Positions 296 to 48,192 of a stretch of 48,194 nucleotides of DNA are shown one piece after another. Position 1 is the stretch's first letter, and every line of letters starts with the position of its first letter. The notes under the pieces are model-generated. The model was not told where the DNA came from, searched no databases, and saw only the letters and a list, made by a program, of their open reading frames with translations. The stretch spans positions 1 through 48,194 of the IMG/VR virus record IMGVR_UViG_3300031718_000017. One strand, 5' to 3'. Source of the stretch: a virus. Position numbers and translations under genes: made by a program.

Positions 296-899
296 GCGCC
301 CGCTGCTGGGCATGGACGGATCGGGTATCCGGTTCGGTATCGACCTGGAAATGTTCGAGCAGTGGCGCTCGAGGATTAGCGAGGAGGACGCCGAGGGGTT
401 CGTTTACTACGGCGGAGACCTTGGCATTTTGCGGTTCGTCTGCGCGTTCGACTACCTCACGCACCAGCGCCGCAACCCCCAGCGCCAAGCGATCGTCAAC
501 GCCTACGCTGCGGCCTATGAACTCGACCCGTCATCCTACACCTGCCGCGTCCGAGCGTTCGAGGCATTCGATCATCCGGCGGTGCAGTATCTCCTCGAGC
601 AGTTCGCCAATGCCGGGCTCGCCAATGCGAAGGCGGCCAACACGCCAGCTTTCAGCAAGCTCCTCGCCCGCGTCCTCAAAGACGGCCAAGGAGCGGAGAG
701 CTTGGGAGATGCGGTCAAGGCGCTCGACGCCGGAACGCGCTTCATGCGGATGATGCAGAACGAAGGGCGCGAACGCCGTCGCCGTGCGATGGTGATTGAC
801 GACACCCCGCGCTCGGTGAAGGCGCGCACCATTGATGCGTCACCTGCGCTCGTAGACGCCGCGCGCAACGCCCCCGAAGCCGAACCCGAAGGCGAGTAA
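267..899 (+). CDS. Putative terminase small subunit
   Basis: A 210-residue protein immediately upstream of the large terminase, joined to it by a TAATG overlap. That is the usual place for the DNA-recognition (small) subunit. The sequence is largely helical in appearance, with a region around residues 70-120 resembling a helical DNA-binding core, a basic patch RERRRR near residue 168, and an acidic C-terminal tail that could contact TerL. No specific family motif is visible, so the call rests on position, size and charge pattern. GTG at 267 overlaps the upstream gene; an internal ATG at 312 is an alternative start. It could instead be an unrelated packaging-operon protein. Confidence 0.5.
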   Translation: MLEESPPQPERPLLGMDGSGIRFGIDLEMFEQWRSRISEEDAEGFVYYGGDLGILRFVCAFDYLTHQRRNPQRQAIVNAYAAAYELDPSSYTCRVRAFEAFDHPAVQYLLEQFANAGLANAKAANTPAFSKLLARVLKDGQGAESLGDAVKALDAGTRFMRMMQNEGRERRRRAMVIDDTPRSVKARTIDASPALVDAARNAPEAEPEGE

Positions 900-2512
900 T
901 GCACGCCTATCCGAGGCCGAAGCGGGCCGCGTGGCTGCTCGCTGATTTCAAGCGCTTCTGCCGCGTCACGCGCATTCTCGACAAGCTCGAAGAGTATCCT
1001 CACGACGAGATGATGGAAGAGATGACGCTCTGCATCCCTGACTTTTCGGCCAACACCCAAACGCGCGAACTCTATCTCGCTCCTCGCTACACCTACAAAA
1101 CCTCGCTCGCCAAGGCGCTCATCGTCTACCTCGTCCTGCGCTTCCCGGATATCTCCATTATGATCTACCGCGCGGCTCGCGAGCTTGCCAAGGATATGCT
1201 CGCGGCGATCCAAGAGGTACTACAGAAGAACCCCGAGATTCTTGACACGTTCGGCGACGTTTCAATCGGATCGCCGCTCTGGACGACGTTTAAGTTCACG
1301 GTCAACACGCGCACGCGAGCGGGTATCCTTGACCCCACCGTGGCGGTCTCCGGACTCAAATCGTCGGCCGCCGGCAAGCACGTCGATTTCATTCTCTGCG
1401 ACGACCTTGTTACCGAGACGAACTGCGACTCGATCGTGGAAATGCAGAAGGCCGAGAAGCTGATCGATTCGACCAAGCCGGTCCTCCCGAAGTGGGGCGT
1501 GCTGCTCGTCACCGGAACGCAGTGGTCGAACATCGACGTCTACCACAAGATTCGTGAGAAGAACATCGAGCTGGTCGAGAACGGTCACCAGCCAGACTTT
1601 CGGGAGTATATTCGCAAGGTTTACACGCGCGATGAAAACGGGGACCTCGTCTATTTCTTCCCGCGCGATCTAAACGAAGAGTTCCTTGAGCAGCAGCGCC
1701 TTACCGTGCTGCCGCGCTGGTTTGCCTCGTGGTATTTCCAGGAAGTCCACGAGCTCGGCATGGCGCCGTTTCCCAAAGACAAGATCAAGATTTTCGAGGG
1801 CGAGTATATCCGCGGCCCGTTCAAGGCGCTCCAGCTTCCCGGCGAGACTGCGCTCCTGCCGCTCTACGTCGTCCTTGCGATGGACCCGGCGCTCACCGCC
1901 GCGGCGTCGTCGGATAACTTCGGGCTCAACGTCGTGGGATTCGATCCGGACAAAAACTGGTGGGTACTGGAGAGCCAGGAGTGGCGCAAGCTCCCGTCCC
2001 AGGCGGCGCACGACATTATCAAGCTGCTCCTAAAATACGAGCCGGATTGCTTCCTCGTCGAGACGGCTCAGGCCGACGTCGAGATGATGAACGTGCTCAC
2101 GGGATTCATCCGCCAATCCGGGATGGCGACGATGGTCCGATCCTACGCCGCGCTGCAGGACGAGGAGAAAGGCAAGACCGGAAAGGCTCAGCGCATCCTC
2201 GGGCTAGAGCACAAGGTTCACGGCGAGAAGATTCGCTTCCGCAAGGGAATGTGCGGGCCGGTCATTCGAGAGATGGATAACTACCCGTCGCTCTCCCACG
2301 ACGACTGCCTCGACTCGCTCGCCATGTGCCGCAAGATGGAGAAGATGGCGCCCAAGGCTCGGACCATAATGATGGAGCGGGACGATCGCGAGCCGGTGGA
2401 CCTCTTTCACCAGCACCTCGATATGATGGAGAAGAAGCCTCCGGGGTTCGGATCGCCAGGCGGCGGCGTCCCGCGGGGCGGCTGGACCGGGCCGTTGACC
2501 CCACGCTCGTAA
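899..2512 (+). CDS. terL: Terminase large subunit (ATPase and nuclease)
   Basis: A 537-residue packaging motor that pumps DNA into the procapsid through the portal and cuts the concatemer. The ATPase half has a Walker A-like loop APRYTYKTSL (residues 61-70), a Walker B-like DFILCDDL (163-170) and the coupling-type motif LLVTGTQWS (202-210). The nuclease half has the RNase H-like acidic residues in VLAMDPA (D329), FLVETA (E388) and HDDCLDSLAM (D468-D472). The length is normal for the family. Its ATG overlaps the TAA of the putative small subunit. The C-terminus ends in a Gly/Pro-rich tail. Strongly supported by motif order and by the portal downstream. Confidence 0.93.
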   Translation: MHAYPRPKRAAWLLADFKRFCRVTRILDKLEEYPHDEMMEEMTLCIPDFSANTQTRELYLAPRYTYKTSLAKALIVYLVLRFPDISIMIYRAARELAKDMLAAIQEVLQKNPEILDTFGDVSIGSPLWTTFKFTVNTRTRAGILDPTVAVSGLKSSAAGKHVDFILCDDLVTETNCDSIVEMQKAEKLIDSTKPVLPKWGVLLVTGTQWSNIDVYHKIREKNIELVENGHQPDFREYIRKVYTRDENGDLVYFFPRDLNEEFLEQQRLTVLPRWFASWYFQEVHELGMAPFPKDKIKIFEGEYIRGPFKALQLPGETALLPLYVVLAMDPALTAAASSDNFGLNVVGFDPDKNWWVLESQEWRKLPSQAAHDIIKLLLKYEPDCFLVETAQADVEMMNVLTGFIRQSGMATMVRSYAALQDEEKGKTGKAQRILGLEHKVHGEKIRFRKGMCGPVIREMDNYPSLSHDDCLDSLAMCRKMEKMAPKARTIMMERDDREPVDLFHQHLDMMEKKPPGFGSPGGGVPRGGWTGPLTPRS

Positions 2513-2907: not shown

Positions 2908-4956
2908 GTGCCGCGCCGACCAGCTTTGCGTCGGTCGGCGACACCGTTTCCCGACGCTACGGTTGAACGGACCACCGGGTCCGTCGAGATTGACGAGGGC
3001 GAGTGGCAGTTAATCGCCTCGGACATTCGCAATTGCATCTACGCCGCGCAGTCCGCGCGCCAGCCGTTAGAGGATAACCTCCGGCTCTTTAATCGCATCT
3101 ACGAGCTTTACTCCGAGCCGCGAAACGAGCCGTTCGCCGATTCATCCTCGGTCTTTCTGCCGCTGGCCGTCTCGAAGCTGGACGCGCTTTGGGCGCAGGT
3201 CGCCTCGAAGGTGTTCGTTCCGAACCTCGCGCTGGTCACGGGCAACGGCGTTCCGGCGCAGCAGGTCAGCTACAAACTCCAGCGCTGGTACAACAACGAT
3301 TTCCGCCGCGAGCGCTACGATCAGACCTCCAAACTCGGCGAGTCGCTTCAGCTTTTGCATTGGGCGCTGCTCGAAGGCACGGCCGCGATGGACATTCGCT
3401 GGAACCGCCAGGAGCAGACCGAACTCTACGACGTCGAGATCCCCAAGCAAGACGACGGTGGCGACCTATCCTTCGGCGACGACGGCGATTTCATTATGGA
3501 CAGCCAGGAAGTCCAGAAGATTCTCCAGCTCAACGAGGCTTCGTGGCGCTGCCGCCAGCTAAAAGATTGGCTCCTCATTCCCAACGAGTCGCTCAACCCG
3601 CACGCCGCCGCAGCTTATGCCGTGTGCGATTGGCTGTACGAAGAAGATTTGTGGGCGCTCGTCGAGTCCGGGAACCTCAAGGAAGAGTGGGTCGAAAAGC
3701 TCCTCGTGTTCGATCCTTCGGGTCAGTCCGACGTTGCCAGCGATCGGCAGGGATATTGGGACAAGAGCGCTGGCGGGCAGCTTCAAATCGGCCAAGGCCA
3801 GGGAACGCTCTCGAGTAAGCAGTTCGCCAACCGCGGCCCGTTCAAGATTTGGTACTACGTTTCGTCGCAGTTCGATATGAACCACGACGGGTGGGCTGAG
3901 CGCAACAACGTCTTTTGGTGGGCGGAGCTTTCTAACTACCTGCTCGGCTGGCTTCCTTCGAAGGCCGTCTCGCAGCGCCGCGGCCTCTTCCTCTTCGCGC
4001 CCATGCCGCGCAAAAATAGCCCTTACGGCTTCTCGGTTCTGGAACGTGAGGCTCCGCTAAACGCCGAGCTCAACACGGTTTTCAACAATGCGAACGACTA
4101 CGTCTCGCTGTCGCTGAAACCGCCGATGCTCGCCGATATCAACAACCAATCGCGCGACGGAGACTACACTTGGGCGCTCGGGAAGCGCTGGTACGTCGAC
4201 GATATCAACTCCGCGTTTAAGCCGCTCGTGGACTACACTAACCCGGCCGTGCTGCAAGGCGCGTACCAAATGGTCTCGATCATTACGAGTTTCGCCGACC
4301 AGCTTGTGGGGCAGACCGCCGTTGGCGCGGGTGGCCTGACGAGCGGTCGGAAATCGGCGACGGAGATCAAGGAATCGTCGGCGGGCTCGGGTACGCGATC
4401 CGACCTCATCGCCCTCTTCTTACGCTTCGTTCTGCGCCGCGCGCTACAGTACGAGCACGAGCTCAACATTCAAAACCTGCCCGATAACCCGCCGGCCGAT
4501 TCAGATATGCCAGCCAAGGCGGATTTCAAGCAGAACGTCAACATCGACGTGGCTGGAACGGGCGATCCGATCGACTTCCAGACCTACGCGCAAGAGTATC
4601 TGACCTGGTACGAAATGATGAGCCGGGACCAAGATATCCAGGGCGACGCCGAAAAACGGTTCGCTCTCAAGCAGCAACTCGGCCGCGTGTTCAAGATCGA
4701 AAACCTCGAAGCGATCATCGGAACCGCCGAGGATGCGGCGCAGAAAAAGCAGGGCGAGGACCAGGCTGGGCAGATGAAACAGCAACTCGAGGTTCAAGCC
4801 GCTCAGGCGAAGATCGCGCACGACCTGAAGGGAACGCCGCAAGAGGCCGCTCAGGCCAAGGAGCAGCAGTCGCCGCCGCCGCTCGACCAGCAGACCCAGC
4901 TCGCGAAAGAAGCGATGAGCCAGAACGGAGAGGCGGCCCCCGCTGGAGTCTCCTAA
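2908..4956 (+). CDS. Portal (head-tail connector) protein
   Basis: A 682-residue protein following the terminase, with the size and features of large podovirus and SU10-type portals. It has an N-terminal segment with a helical wing start, aromatic-rich stem regions in the middle (residues 300-450) and a C-terminal Gln/Ala/Lys-rich coiled coil (about 600-670) resembling a portal barrel. Twelve copies would form the channel for DNA entry and exit. GTG start one base after the previous gene. An acidic insert (DDGGD.SFGDDGD, about residues 182-195) is notable. The family call comes from length, order (terL-portal-scaffold-capsid) and sequence style. Confidence 0.85.
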   Translation: MPRRPALRRSATPFPDATVERTTGSVEIDEGEWQLIASDIRNCIYAAQSARQPLEDNLRLFNRIYELYSEPRNEPFADSSSVFLPLAVSKLDALWAQVASKVFVPNLALVTGNGVPAQQVSYKLQRWYNNDFRRERYDQTSKLGESLQLLHWALLEGTAAMDIRWNRQEQTELYDVEIPKQDDGGDLSFGDDGDFIMDSQEVQKILQLNEASWRCRQLKDWLLIPNESLNPHAAAAYAVCDWLYEEDLWALVESGNLKEEWVEKLLVFDPSGQSDVASDRQGYWDKSAGGQLQIGQGQGTLSSKQFANRGPFKIWYYVSSQFDMNHDGWAERNNVFWWAELSNYLLGWLPSKAVSQRRGLFLFAPMPRKNSPYGFSVLEREAPLNAELNTVFNNANDYVSLSLKPPMLADINNQSRDGDYTWALGKRWYVDDINSAFKPLVDYTNPAVLQGAYQMVSIITSFADQLVGQTAVGAGGLTSGRKSATEIKESSAGSGTRSDLIALFLRFVLRRALQYEHELNIQNLPDNPPADSDMPAKADFKQNVNIDVAGTGDPIDFQTYAQEYLTWYEMMSRDQDIQGDAEKRFALKQQLGRVFKIENLEAIIGTAEDAAQKKQGEDQAGQMKQQLEVQAAQAKIAHDLKGTPQEAAQAKEQQSPPPLDQQTQLAKEAMSQNGEAAPAGVS

Positions 4957-7746: not shown

Positions 7747-8733
7747 ATGGCTGGCAACATCGGTCTCTACGGAACTCGGTCGTCCTACTACGCGCAGAAC
7801 AAAGCGCTCGAGGCGATCGTGTCGGAAATGTACGACAAGACTCCGGCGCAGTTCCCCAACATGTTCACCGAGGTTGACAACAACCCGGAGCGCTCCTCGA
7901 TGGACATTGGCGAGTACGCCGAGCTTGGCGTTATGCACCGCCGCAACGAGTTCGAGGTCCCGCGCAAGGACGCGCCCTACGAGCTGATCCCGGCGCACTT
8001 CAACTTCTTCACCTACGCGCTCGAGGTCGAGTTCTCCGAAGAGGCTCAGACCGAAGATCCCATGCACATGATGGGCGAGGCAGGCGAAATGTTCGCCTTC
8101 TCGGAGCAGAACACCGAGGACCGGATTTACTCCGGTACTTACAACCTGGCCTGGAATCCGAGCTACGCGCTGCCGGACGGGCAGCCGCTCATCTCGAGCA
8201 ACCACATTCTCGACCCGGTCCCCGGATCGACCGGACCGATCTCGTTCAAGAATCAGCCGGTTTTCTCAAACTCGCTGACCAACATGTCGCTCTCGCCCGA
8301 GGCGCTCAACACCGCGATTACAATTCTGCAGAATATGCTCTCGGCTCGCGGCCTGGCAATCTCGCGCGACGGCGTCCGCCTGGTCATCCCGGCCAACGCC
8401 GCGATGATGCAGGTCGCCCGAGAGATCACCGGAACCGAAGCGGCTCCGAACACCACCGACAACCGGAGCAATCCCGAGTACCAGGCTCTCGCGCCGTATG
8501 CGTACCGGTATTTCGTCTGGCCCAACGGCTGGTTCGTCACGGCCGCTCGCACCGCGCTGCGCCGCGGCATGAGCTCGACGATCACCTCGCACAAGTGGCG
8601 TAATAAGGTTCGCACCTGGTACACGGACAACAACGGTTCGTGGCACATGGTCAACGAGTTCCGCTCCACCTTCGGCCCGCGTGGCTGGAGAGATATCGTA
8701 GGGTCGCAGGGCGGCGGACCGTTAGGGCTCTAG
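7747..8733 (+). CDS. Major capsid protein (HK97 fold)
   Basis: A 328-residue shell protein. Its recognisable centre is LPDGQPLISSNH (about residues 142-153), the motif common to HK97-fold capsid proteins of the Mu gpT and related types. It is followed by a Ser/Asn-rich stretch, a long helix with ALNTAITILQ (spine helix) and RLVIPANAAMMQVA (A-domain strand). The N-terminal arm is acidic and helical. The length is normal for uncleaved capsid proteins, and no protease gene is visible nearby. Flanked by structural genes on both sides. Strong call. Confidence 0.87.
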   Translation: MAGNIGLYGTRSSYYAQNKALEAIVSEMYDKTPAQFPNMFTEVDNNPERSSMDIGEYAELGVMHRRNEFEVPRKDAPYELIPAHFNFFTYALEVEFSEEAQTEDPMHMMGEAGEMFAFSEQNTEDRIYSGTYNLAWNPSYALPDGQPLISSNHILDPVPGSTGPISFKNQPVFSNSLTNMSLSPEALNTAITILQNMLSARGLAISRDGVRLVIPANAAMMQVAREITGTEAAPNTTDNRSNPEYQALAPYAYRYFVWPNGWFVTAARTALRRGMSSTITSHKWRNKVRTWYTDNNGSWHMVNEFRSTFGPRGWRDIVGSQGGGPLGL

Positions 8734-25545: not shown

Positions 25546-28500
25546 ATGGCCGCCGGAACGCTTCCCGGCTTCGGTTCCGCTCCACCGCAGCAAGGGCAAC
25601 AGTCCGATCAGCTTAGAGGCTTCGGACCCGGACCTCCTCAGCCAAAATCGCTACCGGGTTTCGCGTCATCACCGCGCGGGACCGCAACTCCAACCCCGAC
25701 CTCCGGACTCAACTGGGGAAAATACACTCCGCCGCAAACCCCGAACTTCTCAAGCGCCGGGCAGAAGCTCTTACCGTTGCTCGACAAGGTCGCTGACCAG
25801 CGCGGAGTCCCGCGCAGCGTTATGCGGACGGTCTATGCAATCGAGTCCGGCTGGACTCCCGATCCGCAGCATTCGGGCGACCCGGCGGGCGCCTACGGAC
25901 CAGGGCAAATCGAAGCGTCGAACGTCGCGTCGCAAGGCAAAGGCTTTGACCGAACCAACCCCGAGCAAGCCTTCAACTATATGGCTGGCTCGTTATCGTC
26001 GGCCTACAAAAAATATAACGATTGGGGTTTAGCGGCTGGAGCCTACAATACCGGCGGCGGTGCGATCGATCAATGGCTCCACGGCGGCGGAAACCTCGAC
26101 GACGTAACTGCCGTAACCAATAAGATCACCGGATCAAAGAGCAACGACGTGCGCTCCTACATGCTTCGCGTTCGAGCGGCGTTTGAGGGCGAGCAGTTCG
26201 ACAGCTATCACAAAGCTCAGCAGAACTCGCAGCTAGACGCCGTGCATCGGCGCGTGGCGGCCAGTATCGCAGCGGCAAAGCAAACCCTGGGGCGGATGAC
26301 CACGATGGATGGCAACGGCCATTATCAGCTAAAGCAGGCGTCGCCGCTCATTGACGTGCAGGGACCGCTCGCGGCGATTGGGTCCTACCTCGAGACGATC
26401 ACGCTGGCGTCTCCGTTCCTCGGAGCGCTCGCTGGGCGCAAGCCTGTCCCCGAATCATACGACGCGAATCTCTCGCGGCAGTCGGCGGGCGTCGAAGCCT
26501 TTGGAAAGCATCTCGCCGAGAATCCGTGGGTGCAGCGCCTCGGTCCTCCGGCTGAGATCGCGGCGCGGCTCATCCAGCTTGGCGGCTACATAGCGCCGCA
26601 GCGCACCGGGTTATTCGCACAGGCTCGCAGCCTTGGGGATATCGCCGCGGCGGAAGGCGACGTCGGCCACGCCTTCATGCAAGGTCCGTCGCATCTCGCG
26701 CAAGCTGAGCAGCGGTACTCCATCGGCTCGCCCGGTTTCATCAAGGCGACGACGGGGAGCGAGCACCATCCTCGGTTCGACGCAGCGCTTCGGACGGCGT
26801 TCGACCTCATCTCGCCCGGAACAGGCTTGATCGGTGACGGGCTAAAGCTGATTCGAGGAATCGCGTCTAAAGCTCCCGCGCTCGAGCGGGTGATGGTCGA
26901 CCTCGCTCAGCATGGCGACGTCATTCGGAACTCTCCGGCGGTGCGAGGGCTCGTCTCGATGTTCACGCCGAGCGCCGTCCTGCGCTATGCGGCCAAGGAC
27001 CTCGGGCTAAACCCCGAGGAGGCGGTGCGACTCGGGCGCGGCTGGGTGTCATCTCAGGCTCGCGCTGGCTACAGCGCGTCGCTCGCTCGCCGGGATATCT
27101 TCAGCGACACGACCCGCGAGCAGGCAGTGGAGATCGAGCGCCGGTCCGAGCAACTCGGCGGAGACCCCAAGGCTGGGGCTCCGAACAAGAACGTCCCCGA
27201 GCCGACCAAGGGACTCTCCCTCGACGAACGAGCGGCGCGGCACCGCGGCACGATGCTGGCGATGGATGACGACAGCCTGGCGCACGCGCTCATCGACGAG
27301 AACCGCATGTTTGACACCTCGCGCTACACCTACCGCGGCGGCCCCCGCGGCTCGGTCTATCGGTTCGATGGTGCCTCCGACGTTATGGACTACTACGGAA
27401 CGGGAGCGCGCGGCGGGCGCGGCGCGGGCAAGGGTGCGGATACGGCGGCGGTCGGCAAGCACAAAGCCTACGAGACCTACGACGAGGCGCAGGCTTCCGG
27501 GAACCTCTCCTCTCGCTACGATCCCCGCGATAACCTCCAGCGCTTCCTCACGAACCGCGGTACGCGCGTCGGCCTTGAGTCCACCCTGCACGATCTCTAC
27601 AGCGCCGGCTTCGGGCGCGAGCTGACCTACACCGACCCCAAAAGCGGTGCGCCGCTCGCGGGCAGCCTGGGAATCTCGACCAGCGGAAAGGGCGCGGCGG
27701 GCATGGCCGCGGCGAAGAACCTCGGCAAGCGCGCGGACGAGGGCGCTGCGCTCGTCGCCGGAGCGAAGGCCGCGGGGATACCCCTATCGGATATCAACTC
27801 CATCCGGCGCGCGAACCCGCAGGCCGTTCAGCGGCTCATCAACGAGGCGCAGAAGGCGTCGAAGGTCGCCGGGGAAGCCGCCGCTGGCGAGTCCGCCAAG
27901 GGCGAGCGGCTCGTAGGGCAGATGAACGTCCGCGAGGACCAAGCCAAAGCGGCCAGTGATTTCCACGCCGAGGCGAGCAAAGCGTCCGCAGCAGCACAGC
28001 GAGCGGCCCAGCGTGCCACTGGGGCAGCGGCGGAGTCCACGCGCGCCTCTAAGGCCGTCGAACACGCCGACCTCGGCAGAAGCGTCGCAAAGGCCATCTA
28101 CGGCCCCAATTCAAAGCTCGAGCGGCGCATATCCGCGCTGGGCGACCAACTCGACCGGGCCGTGGTCAACAAGGCCAAAGCCGACAAGCTCCAGGCAGCG
28201 ATCAACGAACACCTCGAAGCGCACCAGTATAAGACCTTCGACCGCATCCAGAAGAACGCCGAGGCGGCGGAGCGGCATTCCGGCTTCGTCCCGGCCGGCG
28301 ACCTCGCGCGCGATCTGAAGGTCTCCCTCCCGTCGCTCAAGCCGTATTTCTCCTACCACTCCGGGGTCGCCAAGTTTTTGCGCGATATGGGCGCCACTGG
28401 CGAGGAGGCCGGCGCGTGGTCGCAGCTCATGGACGGCTTCAACAAGCTCTATCGGGTCGGGATCATCTACAACCCTGTGCGCCACCTCTTCATCAATATG

Positions 28501-29991
28501 CCGACGAACTATCTCGCGTCGGGCGGCAAGCCGATCAACATTCTGCGGGCCTTCGTCGACGACGGCTACGTCTCGGGGAAGTGGACGGAGGAGCTCGAGA
28601 AGCGCGGCGGGATCAAACGAATGGGCGACCAGCCGATGTTCGGCGGCTCAGTCGGAACGTCGTTTGACAATCCAGGCTTCTGGCGCGACCTCGCATCCAA
28701 AAAGATACCAGGCTCGTCCGTGTTCAAGGACGCCTACGCGAAGGCCGCCGACGTGGCCGGAAAAGCGCCCGCCGACGAGTCTCGCCTGATACAAACTCTG
28801 TCGGCTATGGGCGAGACCGGGAACACGATGCTCTCGCACCTCTGGCAAGGGAACCAGCGGCTCGTGTTCGATTGGGGCGAGACGCGGCTCGCGACCGCGC
28901 GCTTTCGGGAGATGGTCGAGGACGAGGGCCTCACGATGGACGAGGCCGCCAACAAGGTCTCGGGCATCTTCGGCTCAGCGCTGGACCTGTCGAAAACCGG
29001 GATCGACAACATGCTCCACCGGGCGCTGCTTTTCTACCCGTGGCTCAAGGCGACGATTCCGCTAATGATGCGGGCGATGTACCGCGCGCCGTCCTACGTT
29101 TGGACGCCCTACGCGCGATCTCAGGATTGGAACCGAGCGACGCAAGACCCGCGCTGGCGGGCGCAGACCGAGGGAACGTACCACCTCGGAAACTGGAACG
29201 GCAAGGACGCTTATATGTCTTGGCCTGGCCCGCAGAAGTATCTCGAGGACGTGCTGGCCGTATTCGATCCCGCAGGCGGAGACACGACTGCCGGGCTCAC
29301 GCCTCGGATGACGAAGATGCTGAATCTCGCGACCTCGGAGCTAAAGCCGATGCCAACCGGGATACTCGCCGCGGCTGGTGCGACGGAGGTTGGCAAGCCA
29401 GCCGAACCCGGGCCTCCGAACTTTCAAACGCTTTGGGACAACGCCGCGCCGCCGCGCGTGCAGCTCTCGCAGGCGACGACGTCGCTCTTGCAGCGCCTTC
29501 CGTTCGGGCAAATCATCTCGGGAACCGTCGACAACGTGAACAGCGTTTTCAAAGGCGACCCTAGCGCCTTTCTCTCGGCCTTCTCACTCATTCCGTATTC
29601 TCGACCGTCGCCGCAGGTCGAAAAGGCTCAGCGTGAGATGTTTCGCAAATATACCGGAGACTCAGGAAAGATCGAGGCAGCGATTCGAGACGTTCACACG
29701 AAGCCGGGCCTCCCGGAATTTAAGGAGCTTAGGACCGCGGCTCTCCGTGACGCCCAAATGATCTCTTACGTCCAGATGAAGGCGCACGCCCAACTCGTCG
29801 ATCCCTCCGTGACGCCGAAGGATCGCAAGGCGATCACGGCTCAGACGCAGACCCTCATCAAGCAAATCCAGATGGAGATGCAGGCGCTCAACACGGGCGC
29901 TCAGCGCATCCAAATGCTACAATCAAACCCGAGCGGCGCTCCGCCATCCCCGGCCTTCGTACCAGGCTTTGGCGCGTCGCCACCGCCATAG
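25546..29991 (+). CDS. Giant internal virion protein with lytic transglycosylase domain
   Basis: 1,481 residues, the longest gene here. After a Gly/Pro/Gln-rich leader, residues 70-190 form an SLT-type lysozyme fold: AIESGW (catalytic Glu100), AYGPGQIEASNV (116-127) and AAGAYNTGGGAI (163-174). This would cleave the glycan strand to let the ejection channel cross peptidoglycan. The remaining ~1,290 residues are helical, with Ala/Lys/Glu coiled-coil stretches (about 755-930) and a region near 950-1,230 with hydrophobic helices (for example FYPWLKATIPLMMRAMY) suited to channel formation. The architecture matches T7 gp16-like ejection proteins. ATG at 25546, three bases after the previous stop. 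Confidence 0.85.
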   Translation: MAAGTLPGFGSAPPQQGQQSDQLRGFGPGPPQPKSLPGFASSPRGTATPTPTSGLNWGKYTPPQTPNFSSAGQKLLPLLDKVADQRGVPRSVMRTVYAIESGWTPDPQHSGDPAGAYGPGQIEASNVASQGKGFDRTNPEQAFNYMAGSLSSAYKKYNDWGLAAGAYNTGGGAIDQWLHGGGNLDDVTAVTNKITGSKSNDVRSYMLRVRAAFEGEQFDSYHKAQQNSQLDAVHRRVAASIAAAKQTLGRMTTMDGNGHYQLKQASPLIDVQGPLAAIGSYLETITLASPFLGALAGRKPVPESYDANLSRQSAGVEAFGKHLAENPWVQRLGPPAEIAARLIQLGGYIAPQRTGLFAQARSLGDIAAAEGDVGHAFMQGPSHLAQAEQRYSIGSPGFIKATTGSEHHPRFDAALRTAFDLISPGTGLIGDGLKLIRGIASKAPALERVMVDLAQHGDVIRNSPAVRGLVSMFTPSAVLRYAAKDLGLNPEEAVRLGRGWVSSQARAGYSASLARRDIFSDTTREQAVEIERRSEQLGGDPKAGAPNKNVPEPTKGLSLDERAARHRGTMLAMDDDSLAHALIDENRMFDTSRYTYRGGPRGSVYRFDGASDVMDYYGTGARGGRGAGKGADTAAVGKHKAYETYDEAQASGNLSSRYDPRDNLQRFLTNRGTRVGLESTLHDLYSAGFGRELTYTDPKSGAPLAGSLGISTSGKGAAGMAAAKNLGKRADEGAALVAGAKAAGIPLSDINSIRRANPQAVQRLINEAQKASKVAGEAAAGESAKGERLVGQMNVREDQAKAASDFHAEASKASAAAQRAAQRATGAAAESTRASKAVEHADLGRSVAKAIYGPNSKLERRISALGDQLDRAVVNKAKADKLQAAINEHLEAHQYKTFDRIQKNAEAAERHSGFVPAGDLARDLKVSLPSLKPYFSYHSGVAKFLRDMGATGEEAGAWSQLMDGFNKLYRVGIIYNPVRHLFINMPTNYLASGGKPINILRAFVDDGYVSGKWTEELEKRGGIKRMGDQPMFGGSVGTSFDNPGFWRDLASKKIPGSSVFKDAYAKAADVAGKAPADESRLIQTLSAMGETGNTMLSHLWQGNQRLVFDWGETRLATARFREMVEDEGLTMDEAANKVSGIFGSALDLSKTGIDNMLHRALLFYPWLKATIPLMMRAMYRAPSYVWTPYARSQDWNRATQDPRWRAQTEGTYHLGNWNGKDAYMSWPGPQKYLEDVLAVFDPAGGDTTAGLTPRMTKMLNLATSELKPMPTGILAAAGATEVGKPAEPGPPNFQTLWDNAAPPRVQLSQATTSLLQRLPFGQIISGTVDNVNSVFKGDPSAFLSAFSLIPYSRPSPQVEKAQREMFRKYTGDSGKIEAAIRDVHTKPGLPEFKELRTAALRDAQMISYVQMKAHAQLVDPSVTPKDRKAITAQTQTLIKQIQMEMQALNTGAQRIQMLQSNPSGAPPSPAFVPGFGASPPP

Positions 29992-37010: not shown

Positions 37011-37261
37011 AACCCCACCGCCTGCAAAATCCGGTCCCAGACTTCGCCTAATCGGAAGTTGGGCTGCATCATGCGGATGGTCGCCGCCTTATCATAGGCG
37101 TGTGCTCGGTTTGCGCGATCTAACCATTCGTCGTTCGAGTCGATACTGTAACCCCGAAGAATAGCCGCGCGCCGAGTCGCGATGGTTAAGCGCAGATTCC
37201 TCTCGCGCTGAGTTCTCGCGAGAATCTCGGGTATCCCGAAGCCGTAGACGCGCTTACGCAT
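37007..37261 (-). CDS. Hypothetical basic helical protein, 84 aa
   Basis: Overlaps the end of the ATPase gene by eight bases. Rich in Arg and Ala (LARTQRERNLRLTIATRR), ending with a helical, more acidic segment. May bind nucleic acid; it lies directly behind the recombination genes. No family recognised. Confidence 0.55.
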   Translation of the reverse strand: MRKRVYGFGIPEILARTQRERNLRLTIATRRAAILRGYSIDSNDEWLDRANRAHAYDKAATIRMMQPNFRLGEVWDRILQAVGL

Positions 37262-38309
37262 TGGCAGCCTCTTTCTCTAGCGCGAGCTGCGTCTCGAGCC
37301 AGAGCTCAAACGGCGCGTCCTTGTCGCGGTCGCGAACCCAAACGGTTAGCAGGCGGTACAGCTTGCGAAGGTCGGCGTGCGAAAGCTTCGTCGACGACGT
37401 TTCTCCGAAGAACGCTTGCGCGATCTCGTGGCGATGCGCGTCGGGGATCGATTGGCTCGTGGCGTAGGCCATAACCGCCTTGCGGCCGCTGTCGCGGTTC
37501 TCGGGAGTATCGGTATCGCGCGGCCCACCGTTCGCTGCGGGCTGTGCGGCCGGGCCGCCAACGAATAGCGATTGGTCCTTCGCCTCCTGGCCCTCGTCGG
37601 TCATCCCCTCATACGTCGACGCGCCCTTCGGCAGCAAACCCTCGAGCGTTTTCCAGGAGAAGTCGTCGATGATCTGCCCGGCCTTCAGCGCTCCGCTGCG
37701 GCTCTTGACGATCTGCGCTCGAGCGCGCTTCCCGTCGTTACCGAGAACCTTGATGACAAAATCGAAGGCGTACATCGTTTTCTTGTCGCCATCGAACACC
37801 TCGCCGATTTTAACGAGGTCGTTCTGCGCGACCACCTTACCCTGCACTGTGTCACCCGGCTTCGCGTACTCCGCTTTGATCCAGCCGACGCATACGACGT
37901 TCACCTTCAGCTTGTGGTAAAGCTCGTCCAGCAGCGAAGAGAACTTGCGTTTGATGCGTCCCCAATCGAGCGGGCGCAGGTCGTCGCTGCCCTGCTTCTG
38001 CCGTTCCATCGTAGCGGCGTTCACTAAGCCGTTGTATATCGACGTTAGCGAATCGATGACGAGCGTCTCGCACTGCACCTTGCCTTCGCGCACTTGCTTC
38101 GTTAGGTCGCGCACGTCGCTATAGCTCTTGGTGGGAACGGCGGTGAACGCGAATCGGTCTGAAAACCAATCGATCGAGCCTTCCGCGTCGATGACTGCGG
38201 GGTTCGGAAACGTAAGCGCGGCATGGGTTTTCCCGACGCCCGCCTCGCCGATGAGGAGCACCTTAGCGCGTCGGTTTTGCTTGGCGATGGTTTCAAACTT
38301 GAGCGGCAT
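37254..38309 (-). CDS. Sak4-like P-loop ATPase (putative recombinase)
   Basis: 351 residues. Walker A LLIGEAGVGKT (18-28) is followed by LTFPNPAVIDAEGS, as in phage Sak4/AAA_24 proteins, and Walker B is TLVIDSL (82-88). RecA-core strands follow (VNVVCVGWIKAE). The C-terminal ~130 residues are a variable linker (Pro/Asp/Gly) and a helical end. Sak4-type proteins are single-strand annealing or RecA-like recombinases that help phage recombination and replication. The Cas4-like nuclease gene overlaps it by 17 bases upstream, a common pairing of annealase and exonuclease. Confidence 0.78.
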   Translation of the reverse strand: MPLKFETIAKQNRRAKVLLIGEAGVGKTHAALTFPNPAVIDAEGSIDWFSDRFAFTAVPTKSYSDVRDLTKQVREGKVQCETLVIDSLTSIYNGLVNAATMERQKQGSDDLRPLDWGRIKRKFSSLLDELYHKLKVNVVCVGWIKAEYAKPGDTVQGKVVAQNDLVKIGEVFDGDKKTMYAFDFVIKVLGNDGKRARAQIVKSRSGALKAGQIIDDFSWKTLEGLLPKGASTYEGMTDEGQEAKDQSLFVGGPAAQPAANGGPRDTDTPENRDSGRKAVMAYATSQSIPDAHRHEIAQAFFGETSSTKLSHADLRKLYRLLTVWVRDRDKDAPFELWLETQLALEKEAANA

Positions 38310-39102
38310 GTGGAACCTTAACTTTCAGTGGGTTCTTATTAAGCTTGCAGGCGCTGAACTTGCAAGATTTGCAGAGGTACTCCTCGGGCGGATCGGCGTC
38401 GGGCATATCCTTGGTTAGCGCGGCGGCGAGGCGATCGTATTCAACCGCGACGTCGAACGCCGTTTCGTCCGTCTCGAACGGATGCACGACGAGGTAGTTT
38501 CCGGGGATGCGAGCGCCTTCGTCCTTGACGTAGATCGTGGCAGGCGACGCGGCGTAGTAGATGACGACGAAATGCTGCGGCGCCGCTTCTGCTAGGGCGT
38601 ACTTGCCGCTCTGGATGCGGTGCGCTGGCTTGCAATCGCTGCGCCAGTCGCCAGTCCACGCGCTCCACTTAAACTCGATCGTGGCGAGCCTTGGAGCGAT
38701 CCCGGATTCAGTGGCGCGCAGAACGACGACGTCGACGTGCCCCGGGATGCCGTCGTGCTCGACCTCATTCTCAGCGATGACAACGTAGCCGCTTTCGCGC
38801 GGGCCGGGGTTTTCGAGCCCGGCCTTCAGTAAGCACGCCATCCACGCACCCATGAGCGAGCCGTTGTGCATTCGCAGCAGGCTCTTAGGATCTTCGGGAA
38901 GGTCGAGCTTGCCGTTCATCTTCGCCCAAAGCTCACGCGAACACGCGCCAGCGTCGCTGATTCGCAGCTTGCCAGGCTCGCGGTCGTGGTTGCGCGAGAG
39001 AACGCTTGAGGTTATCTCGGCGTGGTACGCTTGCGCGCGTTCGAGCAGCTCCGGCGTGCGAAGCGCGGTCTCGATCGCGGATTTGATATTCTCGGCGTTC
39101 AC
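38293..39102 (-). CDS. Cas4/RecB-family PD-(D/E)XK exonuclease with Fe-S type cysteines
   Basis: 269 residues from GTG at 39102. SDAGACSRELW supplies the first cluster Cys (Cys54). The nuclease core has HDGIPGHVDVVV (Asp124), TIEFKW (Glu143, Lys145) and HRIQSGKYA (Gln-x-x-x-Tyr type motif). The C-terminus CKSCKFSAC (244, 247, 252) completes a Cas4/AddB-like four-Cys 4Fe-4S site. It would degrade one strand of a duplex to give a 3' tail for the adjacent Sak4-like protein. No CRISPR array or other cas gene is present. Confidence 0.8.
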   Translation of the reverse strand: MNAENIKSAIETALRTPELLERAQAYHAEITSSVLSRNHDREPGKLRISDAGACSRELWAKMNGKLDLPEDPKSLLRMHNGSLMGAWMACLLKAGLENPGPRESGYVVIAENEVEHDGIPGHVDVVVLRATESGIAPRLATIEFKWSAWTGDWRSDCKPAHRIQSGKYALAEAAPQHFVVIYYAASPATIYVKDEGARIPGNYLVVHPFETDETAFDVAVEYDRLAAALTKDMPDADPPEEYLCKSCKFSACKLNKNPLKVKVPHAAQV

Positions 39103-39151
39103 GGCAACACCGCCCCGCCAAAGTAGGCGACGACCGCAGGCGAGACGGGGC

Positions 39152-39274
39152 TCAGCTCCCGCCCATCCCCGGCTGGCTGGCATAGCACAGAAGGCAAAGG
39201 TTGCCCCACAGCAGCGGCTCGGGGTGAAACTCGGCGCTTGGCTTGCGCTTGCGGCATTTCGTGCAGCGTTTCAT
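39152..39274 (-). CDS. Zinc-ribbon microprotein, 40 aa
   Basis: ATGA overlap with the TM microprotein sets the start; GGAG precedes it. MKRCTKCRKRKPSAEFHP followed by NLCLLC gives two CxxC pairs, the pattern of small phage zinc proteins with a KxCxxCxxxKPxxEF core. The short gap of 49 bases to the nuclease gene may contain a coupling frame. Function unknown. Confidence 0.6.
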   Translation of the reverse strand: MKRCTKCRKRKPSAEFHPEPLLWGNLCLLCYASQPGMGGS

Positions 39275-42100: not shown

Positions 42101-42526
42101 CTACGAAGCCTCGGCCAGCTTCGGTTGTCGGCGAGTCCCGGCTCGACTGACCGCGGCTCGCGATAGGAGCGCAGCAGATATCTCCGAGATGACGGCGTCG
42201 AGTTCTTGCTGGACCTGGGCGTTGGAGAATCTGAGAACGAGGTAGCCGTGCCCCCGAAGCACTCGATCACGTTGAGCGTCGTAGAGTCGGGTCCGATCGT
42301 GAACCGGACCGTCGACCTCCACGACGACCTTGGGCGTTCGCGCGCAAAAATCGACGATGTATCCAAGCATGCGAGCCTGTCGGGTGAAGCGGTATCCCAG
42401 CGGATGGGCCAGGTCCGTATGTCGGAGGGACTCCCATAACCGCGCCTCGGACGGCGTCGGGTTCTCGCGGAATTGCCTAGCCCGCTCGGTTTTCCAAGCG
42501 GGCATACGGCGACGGATTCCCTGCAC
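42101..42526 (-). CDS. DUF559 / Vsr-like endonuclease
   Basis: 141 residues. RENPTPSEARLWESLR (20-35) is the family opening. Next come GYRFTRQARMLGYIVDFCAR (Asp59), VVVEVDGPVH (Glu70, Asp72, His76) and GYLVLRFSNAQV. These match DUF559 proteins, which belong to the very-short-patch-repair fold of PD-(D/E)XK nucleases. In phages and bacteria they often lie near methyltransferase or helicase genes. It may nick mismatched or foreign DNA, or act as a mobile nuclease. GTG start two bases from the upstream stop. Confidence 0.82.
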   Translation of the reverse strand: MQGIRRRMPAWKTERARQFRENPTPSEARLWESLRHTDLAHPLGYRFTRQARMLGYIVDFCARTPKVVVEVDGPVHDRTRLYDAQRDRVLRGHGYLVLRFSNAQVQQELDAVISEISAALLSRAAVSRAGTRRQPKLAEAS

Positions 42527-45111: not shown

Positions 45112-45467
45112 TGCGGTCGCAGGAAGTGGTCGCGCTTCAGGCGCGCGAGTCGGGCCAGAACGTCCCGAATGAGTTCGTCATCGCCGTGGTCAACCCGCAA
45201 GGGGTTCTCAAACAGTACGGCGGCGTCGACGAGCATATCGCCGACGAGCTGCTGGGGATCATCGAAGAGGGCTGTGCGCTGGTGACTCGCGTCCCAGGGT
45301 CGGACCTGCGCGAGATCATGGAGGCGCAGGCCGCGGGGGACGTTCCCGAGCAGATGCCGCGCAACATCGCGGAACGCTACGGCGCCGCGCCGCGGGCTGG
45401 GGCCGAGGGGGAAGGCGAGAAGCCGCAGGGGCTCGGGCAGCGCCCGGTAGTGGAAAGCGAGCAGTGA
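45111..45467 (+). CDS. Hypothetical protein, 118 aa
   Basis: A folded N-terminal domain (NEFVIAVVNPQGVLKQYGG, ADELLGIIEEG) and a disordered Glu/Gly/Gln-rich tail. It directly precedes and overlaps the first GroES-like gene. No family recognised. Confidence 0.58.
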   Translation: MRSQEVVALQARESGQNVPNEFVIAVVNPQGVLKQYGGVDEHIADELLGIIEEGCALVTRVPGSDLREIMEAQAAGDVPEQMPRNIAERYGAAPRAGAEGEGEKPQGLGQRPVVESEQ

Positions 45468-45817
45468 AGTGCCTGAACGCGCAAATCGCGCTGCGCCCGA
45501 AGCTCATGCGCGAGCAGGCCACCGAGGGCAGCACGATCATCCTCGCCCAGGAAGTCCGCGAGCGCTCGCAAGAGGCCGAGGTGGTCGAGGTCGGGCCGGG
45601 CGAGATGAGCTACGGTAAGCGAATCCCGATCGATCTCGCCAAGGGCGACCGCGTCCTCTACCTGCGCCAGGGCTACACCGCGACGATCAACGGCGAGACG
45701 CTCTATTTTGTCACCGACCGCGACATTCTCGCCGTCCTCTACGACGACGACAGCGCCGAGTTCTACGGCCAGACCGTCGACGAGGAAGTTCGTAAAGCGG
45801 CGCTCGGGAGAGAATAG
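45464..45817 (+). CDS. GroES-like (Cpn10) co-chaperonin 1, 117 aa
   Basis: Follows the Cpn10 pattern throughout: IALRPKLM (first strand), a mobile-loop-like EGSTIILAQE (21-30, with the hydrophobic IIL that contacts GroEL), EVVEVGPGEMSYGKRIPIDL (39-58), AKGDRVLYLRQG (59-70), and INGETLYFVTDRDILAVL (75-92). A 25-residue acidic then basic tail follows, absent from bacterial GroES. It would form a ring capping host GroEL, as T4 gp31 does for capsid folding. GTGA overlap with the upstream gene. Confidence 0.85.
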   Translation: MKCLNAQIALRPKLMREQATEGSTIILAQEVRERSQEAEVVEVGPGEMSYGKRIPIDLAKGDRVLYLRQGYTATINGETLYFVTDRDILAVLYDDDSAEFYGQTVDEEVRKAALGRE

Positions 45818-46176
45818 TGGGACGACCGAGAGGCGGATACCGCGGACCACCATGCACGGAGCCTTTCAACATGCCGCTACCGCCAGCGCTCCATGCCTTC
45901 ATGCGGACCCACGCCTTCCGCCGAGACATTACCGAGCAGGACCTATTCCGAACCATTTCGACTTGCTGGGTTAGGCGCGTCACGCCGCGGGACGACCCGG
46001 TCTTTAGCCTGAACTCCATCGGTTTCTATATGCCGCCAGCGGTAAGCGATGACGACTTCTACGATGGGTTCGTTGCGAGCTTGCGCTTTCAGCCGGAGCC
46101 CGACGTTCCGGTTCTCTCCGTCAATGAACCTCCCGCCCGTACTGCGTCCGAACAATGGCCGAGCCAAAAACGGTAA
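45817..46176 (+). CDS. Hypothetical protein, 119 aa
   Basis: GTG shares a base with the GroES-like stop. Basic start (GRPRGGYRGPP), then ALHAFMRTHAFRRDITEQDL and an acidic C-terminal half. Unknown function. Overlaps the next gene by 22 bases. Confidence 0.5.
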   Translation: MGRPRGGYRGPPCTEPFNMPLPPALHAFMRTHAFRRDITEQDLFRTISTCWVRRVTPRDDPVFSLNSIGFYMPPAVSDDDFYDGFVASLRFQPEPDVPVLSVNEPPARTASEQWPSQKR

Positions 46177-46790
46177 TCCCGGTCCGCCGGCGCGGATCGC
46201 ACAACCCGGGCGGAGCGAAGCCGCGCCGCACCAAGGACGCCGGCGCGCTTTCCGAGCTCGATCGCGAGGAGCGGGAGTTCAAAGAGCGCCGCGCCGCCGA
46301 GCGAAAGAACAGCAAACCCCTCCGTGTGCTGGTGCGCGGGCCGGTGTATCTCTCGCTGCTTAAACTGTCCGAGACGTTCGGGCGCGAGCCGAAGATCCAG
46401 GCCGAGCTTTGCCTAGAGCTGGGCGTGCGCTTCTACGAGAACAACAACACGCCGTTCGGCGGACCCCGGCCGCTGGAGAATCTTCCCGAGGTGCGTGAGG
46501 GAACTGTAATAGAAAGTGGAGATGCTCCGTTGCATCGCGCGCCGACGAAGGCTGAGCCACGGGGCGCCGGCTGGATGGGCCAGGATGCTGGGCTACCTGT
46601 AGCGTCGACTCGCGTCTGGACCTCGCCGGAGGAAGCGACCGTCGCCGTCGTACCAATTCAGGAGCCGCCTCCAGAAGAGGAGGGAGGAGCCGCAGCGCCC
46701 GCATTCACCATTCCGCCGCAACCGCAAGATAGCGGTGCCGCGGCGGCCGAGGCTCCCGTCGAGGACGATATCGAGGTGACGGTCGTATGA
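46155..46790 (+). CDS. Hypothetical protein, 211 aa
   Basis: Basic, disordered N-terminus (residues 1-55), a helical block (VYLSLLKLSETFGREPKIQ) that may be a dimerisation or DNA-binding module, and a long Pro/Glu/Ala-rich acidic tail. No family recognised. ATGA overlap downstream. Confidence 0.58.
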   Translation: MAEPKTVIPVRRRGSHNPGGAKPRRTKDAGALSELDREEREFKERRAAERKNSKPLRVLVRGPVYLSLLKLSETFGREPKIQAELCLELGVRFYENNNTPFGGPRPLENLPEVREGTVIESGDAPLHRAPTKAEPRGAGWMGQDAGLPVASTRVWTSPEEATVAVVPIQEPPPEEEGGAAAPAFTIPPQPQDSGAAAAEAPVEDDIEVTVV

Positions 46791-46933
46791 ACTCTTGCCA
46801 AATTACTGATTGCGTGCTAGCAGTTACCTGGATGGTTATCGGGTTCACATGGTTCGGGTTAGTCGGAAACCGACGACGCCTGCGCGAGATGGAGAAGCGG
46901 CTAGGATATAAACCTACGCAGTGGTTTCCATGA
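46787..46933 (+). CDS. TM microprotein, 48 aa
   Basis: ATGA overlap sets the start. Hydrophobic helix CVLAVTWMVIGFTWFGLV (9-26), then a basic helix RRRLREMEKRLGY. Overlaps the second GroES-like gene by four bases. Confidence 0.55.
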   Translation: MNSCQITDCVLAVTWMVIGFTWFGLVGNRRRLREMEKRLGYKPTQWFP

Positions 46934-47211
46934 AGGCGTGGCGCCCGTTCCATCGCGGCCTGATGATCGTCGCACCACGCGTTGGCAGCGGGAAAACCGC
47001 CAGCGGCCTACACGTCGAGATCGGCCTCTACAATCGCGACGTCACGCGCCGCACGAAGATGATCGCCGAGGTTCTCTCCACCTTCGGATGCGATCAGGTC
47101 AAGCCGGGCGATACCGTCGTCTACCGATACGGAGCGGAGAACGCGGTCCGCGATAGCGAAGGCGAGGAGTTAACCTTTCTTTCCGAGCGCCACTGTATAC
47201 TGGCTAAGTGA
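46930..47211 (+). CDS. GroES-like (Cpn10) co-chaperonin 2, 93 aa
   Basis: ATGA overlap sets the start MKAWRPFHRG. It has GKTASGLHVEI (21-31), very like the GroES mobile loop TKTASGIVLP, then MIAEVLSTFG, QVKPGDTVVYRYGAE (56-70) and SEGEELTFLSERHCILAK (76-93). The latter matches the Cpn10 ending with the ILA signature. The length is that of a standard GroES. It is clearly different from the protein at 45464, so the phage encodes two co-chaperonins, which could form mixed rings or serve different clients. Confidence 0.78.
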   Translation: MKAWRPFHRGLMIVAPRVGSGKTASGLHVEIGLYNRDVTRRTKMIAEVLSTFGCDQVKPGDTVVYRYGAENAVRDSEGEELTFLSERHCILAK

Positions 47212-47477
47212 TGGACATAGAGAAGCAGCTTCAGCACGCCGTTGACCGCGACGAAATGCACCGGCTAATTGAAGGGTTACACGATGACCAAACTGCGATC
47301 CTAATAACTCAGTGCGATACAGAAGATCCAGACGCCTTAGATGGTCAGACCGTGACCTATCACCACATCGGAACAGTGGCTCTCTGGAAGGCTCTCGGAT
47401 TGATCGAGTGCGCCAAGTCGCAAATACACGAGACGCATTACCACGAGGATTGCTGCACCGCAGAGGAGGAGGAATAA
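47211..47477 (+). CDS. Hypothetical acidic protein, 88 aa
   Basis: ATG overlaps the TGA of the GroES-like gene (GTG at 47208 is also possible). Alpha/beta-looking, with His/Cys near the end (HETHYHEDCCTAEEEE). Unknown function. TAATG overlap downstream. Confidence 0.58.
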   Translation: MDIEKQLQHAVDRDEMHRLIEGLHDDQTAILITQCDTEDPDALDGQTVTYHHIGTVALWKALGLIECAKSQIHETHYHEDCCTAEEEE

Positions 47478-47665
47478 TGCCTTTCTACAGCTACCACTGC
47501 GGCGCGTGCGGCCACGAGTTTGAGGCCCTCCACAATATCAAGCTCGAAGCCGAGGCGGTTGAATGCGTGCGCTGCAAGGTAACAGGCATGTGCGACCGCC
47601 AGGTTTGCGTTCCCGGACGAGCCAAGGTTCCGGGCGGGACCGGCGCGTCAAAGAGGGCGTGGTGA
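47477..47665 (+). CDS. FmdB-family zinc-ribbon protein, 62 aa
   Basis: Starts MPFYSYHCGACGHEFEALHN, the opening of the FmdB putative regulatory family (MPxYxYxCxxCGHxFE). It is followed by ECVRC, giving two Cys pairs for one zinc ribbon, and a Gly/Lys tail. Small FmdB-like proteins occur in many phages and bacteria, with no settled function. Confidence 0.72.
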   Translation: MPFYSYHCGACGHEFEALHNIKLEAEAVECVRCKVTGMCDRQVCVPGRAKVPGGTGASKRAW

Positions 47666-47760
47666 GCTGCGACTATATCCCGCCGCTCCCCGTTCGGGAG
47701 GATACCAGCGAGGAGTGGATGGAGGAGGACGATGGAAGCGTGTATGATGTTGACGACTAG
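47662..47760 (+). CDS. Acidic microprotein, 32 aa
   Basis: GTGA overlap with the FmdB gene. Mostly Asp/Glu in the second half (EEWMEEDDGSVYDVDD). Highly acidic peptides of this kind can mimic DNA, but this is too short to judge. A second start with a strong RBS lies inside it at 47732. Confidence 0.45.
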   Translation: MSCDYIPPLPVREDTSEEWMEEDDGSVYDVDD

Positions 47761-47821
47761 CCACGACCCGTTCGGGGAGAATGGGGAGGAATCGGAGGAC
47801 TTCGACGGATGCCACTACTGA
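47732..47821 (+). CDS. Acidic microprotein, 29 aa
   Basis: ATG preceded by GGAGGAGG, one of the best RBS in the window. MEACMMLTTSHDPFGENGEE and an Asp/Glu-rich end. Overlaps both neighbours in different frames. May serve mainly to couple translation into the basic protein at 47809. Confidence 0.4.
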   Translation: MEACMMLTTSHDPFGENGEESEDFDGCHY

Positions 47822-48015
47822 AGCGCAAGAAAGGCGAGAAGAAATCCGCCCAGGGGGTACGAACCGCGATGCACGAGTTCAAGCGCGGTAAACTCCACAG
47901 TGGATCGAAGGCTGGTCCAAAGGTAAAATCCAAGGCGCAGGCTATCGCTATCGGTCTAAGCAAAGCGCGCAAATCCGGGGCGAAAGTTCCGAAGAGAAAG
48001 AAGGCCAAGAAGTGA
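47809..48015 (+). CDS. DUF6496-like basic protein, 68 aa
   Basis: Contains TAMHEFKRGKLHSGSKAGPK followed by VKSKAQAIAIGLSKARKSG, the signature of the DUF6496 family of small Lys-rich proteins. N- and C-termini are clusters of Lys/Arg. The family has no known function but its charge fits DNA binding. GTGA overlap with the next gene. Confidence 0.72.
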   Translation: MPLLKRKKGEKKSAQGVRTAMHEFKRGKLHSGSKAGPKVKSKAQAIAIGLSKARKSGAKVPKRKKAKK

Positions 48016-48173
48016 AAGTCATCCATCCCGCCAAGATCAAGAACCTCATGGAGCGCGGCAACAAGCCGAGCGACGGAGAGACGAAAGTGATGCCTGGCGT
48101 CAAGTTCAAGAAAGAGCAAGCGCGCCGTACCCCGAGCGGTTCGCGCCGTCCCCGAAATAAAGGCCGCGGTTAG
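48012..48173 (+). CDS. Small basic protein, 53 aa (spans the contig join)
   Basis: GTG start; ends in TAG at 48171-48173, overlapping the next GTG. Lys/Arg/Gly-rich: PAKIKNLMERGNKPSDGETK, then GVKFKKEQARRT and a disordered SRRPRNKGRG end. It is the complete copy of the gene truncated at the window start. Probably nucleic-acid-binding; no family recognised. Confidence 0.6.
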   Translation: MKVIHPAKIKNLMERGNKPSDGETKVMPGVKFKKEQARRTPSGSRRPRNKGRG

Positions 48174-48192
48174 TGGCTGAACCCACGGACGT
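48067..48192. repeat. Direct terminal repeat, right copy (contig join)
   Basis: Identical to 1-126; see the first entry. It ends two bases before the window end, after which one position (48193) differs from its counterpart. Confidence 0.9.

Follow-up and report, generated by a model that had tools for sequence, protein, structure and literature searches.

Why should a phage with a genome of 48 kb code for two GroES-like co-chaperonins, and what might each of them do? The question is raised by two genes near the end of the window, i.e., the whole stretch of viral DNA that was analyzed (48,194 nucleotides, IMG/VR record IMGVR_UViG_3300031718_000017), which had been noticed in a preliminary description of the sequence. 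The answer favored here, to which we give roughly even chances on the strength of sequence comparisons, is that both proteins cap the GroEL of the host, with GroES1 serving as a standard roofed lid and GroES2, open at the top, for a different virion client.

The window begins with 126 bases which recur exactly at positions 48067-48192, with the last two bases not fitting, and because of this repeat the phage genome is probably closed as a circle. Matches to PHROG families of a terminase, a head-tail adaptor and an internal virion protein suggest a podovirus. The terminase large subunit (899-2512, plus strand; PHROG 38, E 2.1e-51) is followed by a predicted head-tail adaptor or portal-type protein (2908-4956, plus strand; PHROG 332, E 1.1e-9), for which tblastn gave no match in the phage collection. 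No tRNA genes were found in the window, and a scan for promoters and terminators produced nothing exceeding chance.

Two Cpn10-type genes in one overlapping run

The first of the two genes, GroES1 (ORF1, 45464-45817, plus strand), codes for 117 residues and begins with a GTG codon which overlaps the stop of the previous gene, and the second, GroES2 (ORF2, 46930-47211, plus strand), codes for 93 residues. Between them lie three small ORFs on the same strand, of 119 residues (45817-46176), 211 residues (46155-46790) and 48 residues (46787-46933). The first two have no family match in Pfam or PHROG, while the third contains a hydrophobic stretch and shares ATGA overlaps both with the preceding gene and with GroES2, whose ATG start at 46930 overlaps the stop before it. 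Reading frames thus overlap all the way from GroES1, via the three small ORFs, to GroES2 and the gene that follows it, which suggests that the stretch from GroES1 to GroES2 forms one co-translated run. Two further proteins are encoded between GroES2 and the terminase, at 47477-48012, one with a zinc ribbon (PF09723, 45.4 bits) and one of the DUF6496 family (59.6 bits).

In the near relative IMGVR_UViG_3300021420_000056, positions 45464-47211 align as a single block of 1748 bases (94.6%), and protein identity amounts to 95% for GroES1 and 90% for GroES2. Within this single genome pair, GroES1 exhibits 13 synonymous and 6 nonsynonymous changes (dN/dS ~0.14) and GroES2 25 and 13, respectively (dN/dS ~0.13), the latter ratio ruling out a decayed gene. 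Both genes are real, and purifying selection has maintained both of them in the only near relative found. Close relatives of GroES2 were found only in this genome among viral contigs, and none were found in phages or genome contigs, using scans which require exact short-peptide matches and hence overlook distant relatives.

GroES1 is clearly predicted to be a canonical, roofed Cpn10/GroES co-chaperonin. It scores 52.2 bits with the Pfam Cpn10 model (PF00166, E 6.4e-14), thereby passing the cut-off of 21.1, and E 3.8e-16 against a Cpn10 profile in hhalign; a mobile-loop tripeptide (IIL), a roof segment and the GD strand are all present. In the respects tested it is like GroES of other origins, from which it differs by an acidic C-terminal tail of 25 residues. 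This tail was correctly noted in the preliminary description, as was the TASG mobile loop of GroES2. GroES1 is closer to ordinary bacterial GroES (hhalign score, 79) than to the phage GroES linked to capsid genes, to which we return below (34).

Both proteins had also been said to follow the Cpn10 pattern, with a search against PF00166 proposed as a check. This stands for GroES1, whereas for GroES2, in which neither the roof segment nor the VGPG turn is present, it was overstated, the Pfam score of 14.0-14.2 bits (E ~0.05, residues 56-88 only) being below the 21.1 cut-off. In Pfam, an unrelated holin family ranked equally high (E 0.047). The sole PHROG match of GroES2 was to family 3188, “co-chaperonin GroES” (E 0.026), and the sole NCBIfam match was to the GroES model (E 0.021, residues 4-85 of the GTG reading); these Pfam, PHROG and NCBIfam matches are insufficient singly and are not independent of each other. 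Three tests with controls place GroES2 beyond chance. A small Cpn10 HMM, built from 10 other Cpn10s and applied to the 595 stop-to-stop ORFs of the window, placed GroES2 second with 12.6 bits, after GroES1 (57.9) and ahead of the next ORF (4.4), and this score was reached by 1 of 20,000 shuffles. In profile-profile comparison, the pair of GroES2 sequences aligned with Cpn10 over residues 1-93 with a score of 27.7, which was matched by none of 300 shuffles (best, 19.65), and the single GroES2 sequence ranked second among the 460 window ORFs of 60-300 residues (27.75; next, 18.54). The yardstick was T4 gp31, which is regarded in PMC6318259 as structurally homologous to GroES and has a solved structure (1g31); its score in the same comparison was 20.3, and GroES2 is therefore nearer to the Cpn10 profile than gp31.

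GroES2 may thus be described as a full-length, very divergent Cpn10-like protein, collinear with the family over its length beyond chance and similar to it in the mobile loop, the GD strand and the C-terminal strand. The claim that one phage codes for two diverged Cpn10-type proteins is borne out by these profile tests and by the presence of both ORFs.

Structure prediction for GroES2 from its own two sequences (AlphaFold) gave a mean pLDDT of 37.8, too low for this model to be used. When Cpn10 rows were placed in the alignment, the mean rose to 68.6, with 70-86 in the barrel core and a low-confidence stretch at residues 17-40, the expected place of the mobile loop; because of these rows the model is partly circular, and it may serve as support only, leaning as it does on the alignment. 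In Foldseek, the first 30 PDB rows for this model were of Cpn10 type, as may follow from the way it was built, and gp31 (1g31) appeared at rank 10. Three of the 30 rows are chains of 7ekq, of which chain Q is named Chaperonin 23. VIA-align gave a best Z of 11.1 (rmsd 3.9, 73 residues aligned), compared to 6.5 for the best unrelated fold, and a Z of 8.8 for 1g31 (rmsd 5.1, 84 aligned). A search of PDB sequences with the GroES2 profile yielded chance matches only. It is nevertheless very improbable that GroES2 is no relative of Cpn10 and resembles it by chance: the sub-threshold Pfam score alongside an equally high unrelated family, the low pLDDT from its own two sequences and the PDB sequence search would agree with such a view, yet the second rank among both 460 and 595 ORFs, the shuffling results and the collinear alignment over the full length speak against it.

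GroES1 and GroES2 share 17% of their residues, and direct comparison of their profiles gives a probability of 2.4%, such that the two are linked only through the Cpn10 family. In a tree from which gp31 was left out, GroES2 stands beside Motura and the GAP32 gp262 type (95/85, 88/86), at a point where long branches meet. A single clade of GroES1 and GroES2 was not rejected (p 0.49), nor was a clade of the capsid-linked GroES with GroES2 (0.136), with GroES1 (0.141) or with both (0.162), nor one of GroES2 with the GAP32 gp130 type (0.203). Since none of the five tests led to a rejection, duplication and separate gain are both possible.

The roof segment and the mobile loop

The main difference between the two proteins, missed in the preliminary description, is the absence of the roof from GroES2. 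The roof segment, taken here as what separates the EVx strand from the GD in the following strand, comprises 19 residues in GroES1 and 19-21 in six hand-read cellular-type Cpn10s, compared to 10 in GroES2, in which no roof hairpin of that size is found. Its length is 20 residues in all 67 parsed alphaproteobacterial Cpn10s (13 of 80 were unparsed) and 20-28 in the capsid-linked phage GroES (46 of 54 parsed). Short segments occur in gp31 (14), the GAP32 gp130 type (12) and DSL-LC05 (11). In DSL-LC05 this roof-short protein is the only Cpn10 found; it lacks the usual loop glycines, and its gene (L025:7592-7840) overlaps the start of the portal gene. The loop glycine and the EVx strand are separated by 20 residues in GroES2, by 14 in cellular Cpn10s and in gp31, and by 12-20 in the capsid-linked phage GroES. 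The mobile loop of GroES2 is thus six residues longer than usual, and it carries the tripeptide LHV, whose polar middle residue may weaken the binding of GroEL.

T4 gp31 is described in a passage of PMC6318259 as having no roof loops, a longer mobile loop and a slightly enlarged chamber, the latter being believed to permit the folding of gp23. Like GroES2, it is coded by a phage and combines a short roof segment with a longer mobile loop. The roof segment of GroES2 is shorter still (10 vs 14), its loop is extended beyond the SG motif, in a part which keeps the usual 14 residues in gp31, and GroES2, by contrast, has a full-size GroES nearby. GroES2 therefore possesses much of the gp31 plan, with the extra loop residues placed elsewhere. 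As gp31 is also without a roof, the absence of this element does not bar GroES2 from work as a lid.

The same features bear on another explanation, in which GroES2 is a repurposed Cpn10 fold that acts as a GroEL blocker, a structural part or a regulator, while GroES1 does all of the co-chaperonin work. We consider this unlikely. The high divergence of GroES2, the LHV in its mobile loop and the neighboring genes without family matches would be expected of such a protein, but the loop stretch TASGLHVEIGLYN is identical in the phage and its near relative, and the roof-less gp31 is, according to the same part of PMC6318259, a working co-chaperonin.

Co-chaperonins of related and of larger phages

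A probable major capsid protein of 328 residues (7747-8733, plus strand; ~36 kDa, as estimated from its length) was recognized by tblastn matches to head and major capsid proteins, and it is a likely client. It has no match in Pfam or PHROG, and in the phage collection it matches only CRP-901, CRP-902 and DSL-LC04, with 24-26% identity. CRP-902 and DSL-LC04 code for one Cpn10 each, which precedes the capsid gene. When viral contigs were scanned with a capsid alignment, at least 340 loci of at least 600 candidates were confirmed, and the best 80 were kept; these were chosen by the capsid protein alone, and the Cpn10 HMM applied to them contained three members of that group. Among these best 80 of at least 340 loci, 58 have a same-strand Cpn10 at 2,039-2,474 bases upstream of the capsid match, the 22 loci without one have at most 2,540 bases upstream, and where 3.2 kb or more is present upstream, a Cpn10 precedes the capsid gene without exception (48 of 48 loci). 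No second Cpn10 was found under E 1e-3 in the 80 loci, with four weak matches (0.035-0.89), and a second copy as divergent as GroES2 could escape this search. GroES is also named as a core gene of HTVC023P-type phages in a passage of PMC9599517. The strict tie between GroES and the capsid lineage points to the capsid protein as a client.

HTVC027P, CRP-902, DSL-LC04 and related viral contigs thus resemble the present phage in having a related capsid protein and a GroES in the head region, yet they carry a single GroES, with a roof in those that were read, at 2.0-2.5 kb upstream of the capsid gene. Apart from GroES1 and GroES2, none of the 460 window ORFs scores as a Cpn10 in profile-profile comparison, and the usual place upstream of the capsid gene is therefore empty. 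By their coordinates, GroES1 and GroES2 precede the terminase and are separated from the capsid gene downstream by ~8.6 kb around the circle, and the phage is an exception to the common arrangement in its capsid-protein lineage. With the two nearest sequences as queries, a scan for the capsid protein led to no genome other than IMGVR_UViG_3300021420_000056.

The preliminary description considered two copies in one phage to be unusual, which they are to a lesser degree than supposed. Two GroES in one phage are already known, a passage of PMC5259590 having reported two ORFs for GroES-like proteins in phage CBB. Across 50,697 phage records, GroES was detected at 115 places in 102 records, which include some bacterial sequences deposited as phage; among the matches listed, 11 of 60 rows had two places. 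When 12 phage records were searched whole with the Pfam model, two Cpn10s over the cut-off were detected in four (GAP32, XbC2, BF and Kaldavass) and one in the remaining eight. The four genomes measure 357-378 kb, and their copies are 123-128 kb apart. As read from the sequence, GAP32, BF and XbC2 each have one roofed and one roof-shortened copy, and the GAP32 gp130-type copy recurs at 69.9% identity or more in 14 records, RefSeq doubles counted. The roofed copy of GAP32 adjoins virion structural genes and the other adjoins a tyrosyl-tRNA synthetase. Two diverged Cpn10s per phage are thus common to the jumbo phages GAP32, CBB, BF, XbC2 and Kaldavass and to the present one, whereas the wide spacing in the four searched contrasts with a single overlapping run in 48 kb. 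The finding of two GroES is confirmed and modestly surprising; what is new is the pair within one run of five overlapping genes in a 48-kb phage, together with the roof-less GroES2. No published pair of a roofed and a roof-less GroES was found in a literature search which omits most subscription papers.

This spacing is of consequence for the main rival explanation, a mixed and partly roofed ring of GroES1 and GroES2 in which GroES2 is inactive alone. Both genes belong to one run of overlapping ORFs, and Arabidopsis Cpn10(1) is described in PMC4242682 as active only as a hetero-oligomer with Cpn20. Against this, few residues are common to GroES1 and GroES2, and the distance between the paired copies in the four jumbo phages does not suggest joint production there. 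A mixed ring seems an unlikely arrangement.

Other phages were also searched for hidden copies. A GroES2-type profile gave a single weak match in 12 other phage records, in an 832-residue frame of XbC2 (E 0.027), which was taken as chance. With profile A3, no hidden second Cpn10 was found in six of six whole records of podoviruses with one Cpn10; this profile does not find T4 gp31, and such searches can therefore overlook lids as divergent as gp31. In profile-profile comparison of stretches from the six podoviruses, the next-best ORFs scored 13.9-21.1, the top of this range being near the 20.3 of gp31. The ORF of L024 (21.1), read in the frame of an annotated RfaH-type factor gene, was not taken as a Cpn10, nor was that of L025 (20.2), which lies on the strand opposite to the listed genes. 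The BFVD entries A0A8S5S075 and S0A356 are phage GroES-like proteins of 200 residues, with room for two Cpn10 units per chain.

Two lids for the host chaperonin

In the favored reading, the phage would make two co-chaperonins and use the GroEL of its host, no match to Cpn60 (GroEL) having been found in the window or in the near relative. Both proteins would form GroES-like rings which cap host GroEL during virion assembly. GroES1 would act as the ordinary roofed lid that closes the cage, while GroES2, with no roof loops and a longer mobile loop, would leave an opening atop the dome and provide more room, thereby allowing a virion protein to fold for which the closed cage is too small or otherwise unsuited. 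We infer ring formation, GroEL binding, the client of each lid and their division of labor. The capsid protein would be the first candidate for a client; at ~36 kDa it fits the ordinary cage, and the size argument made for gp31 therefore does not apply to it. Since the capsid protein needs no bigger cage, the client of GroES2 may be a virion protein which is larger or more elongated.

Two lids could also be meant for two host GroELs, or for hosts which differ in their GroEL. Several groES genes do occur in some bacteria, e.g., in two to three places in some rhizobial plasmid records, but the data hold no pointer to two GroELs; this explanation appears quite improbable.

Beyond the use of both lids on host GroEL in this phage, a broader proposal can be put forward tentatively, with less than even chances: phages may repeatedly have settled on a kit of two lids, one roofed and one roof-less, by which GroEL is switched between closed and open-topped forms for different clients. 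If so, the 48-kb phage would be the smallest example seen, with both lids in one gene run. The purpose of the GroES roof, and its lack in gp31, are usually studied across lids of different organisms. A phage with both kinds of lid, such as this one and some jumbo phages, would enable their comparison on the same GroEL and with the same clients.

Several other proteins of the window were also observed. On the minus strand, a Sak4-like/AAA_24 protein adjoins a protein weakly similar to Cas4-type exonucleases (37254-39183), and a DUF559 protein (42101-42526; 111 bits) shows a weaker match to a restriction endonuclease-type family. A protein of 1481 residues (25546-29991) contains a transglycosylase SLT domain near its N-terminal start (46.4 bits) and is perhaps an ejection protein.
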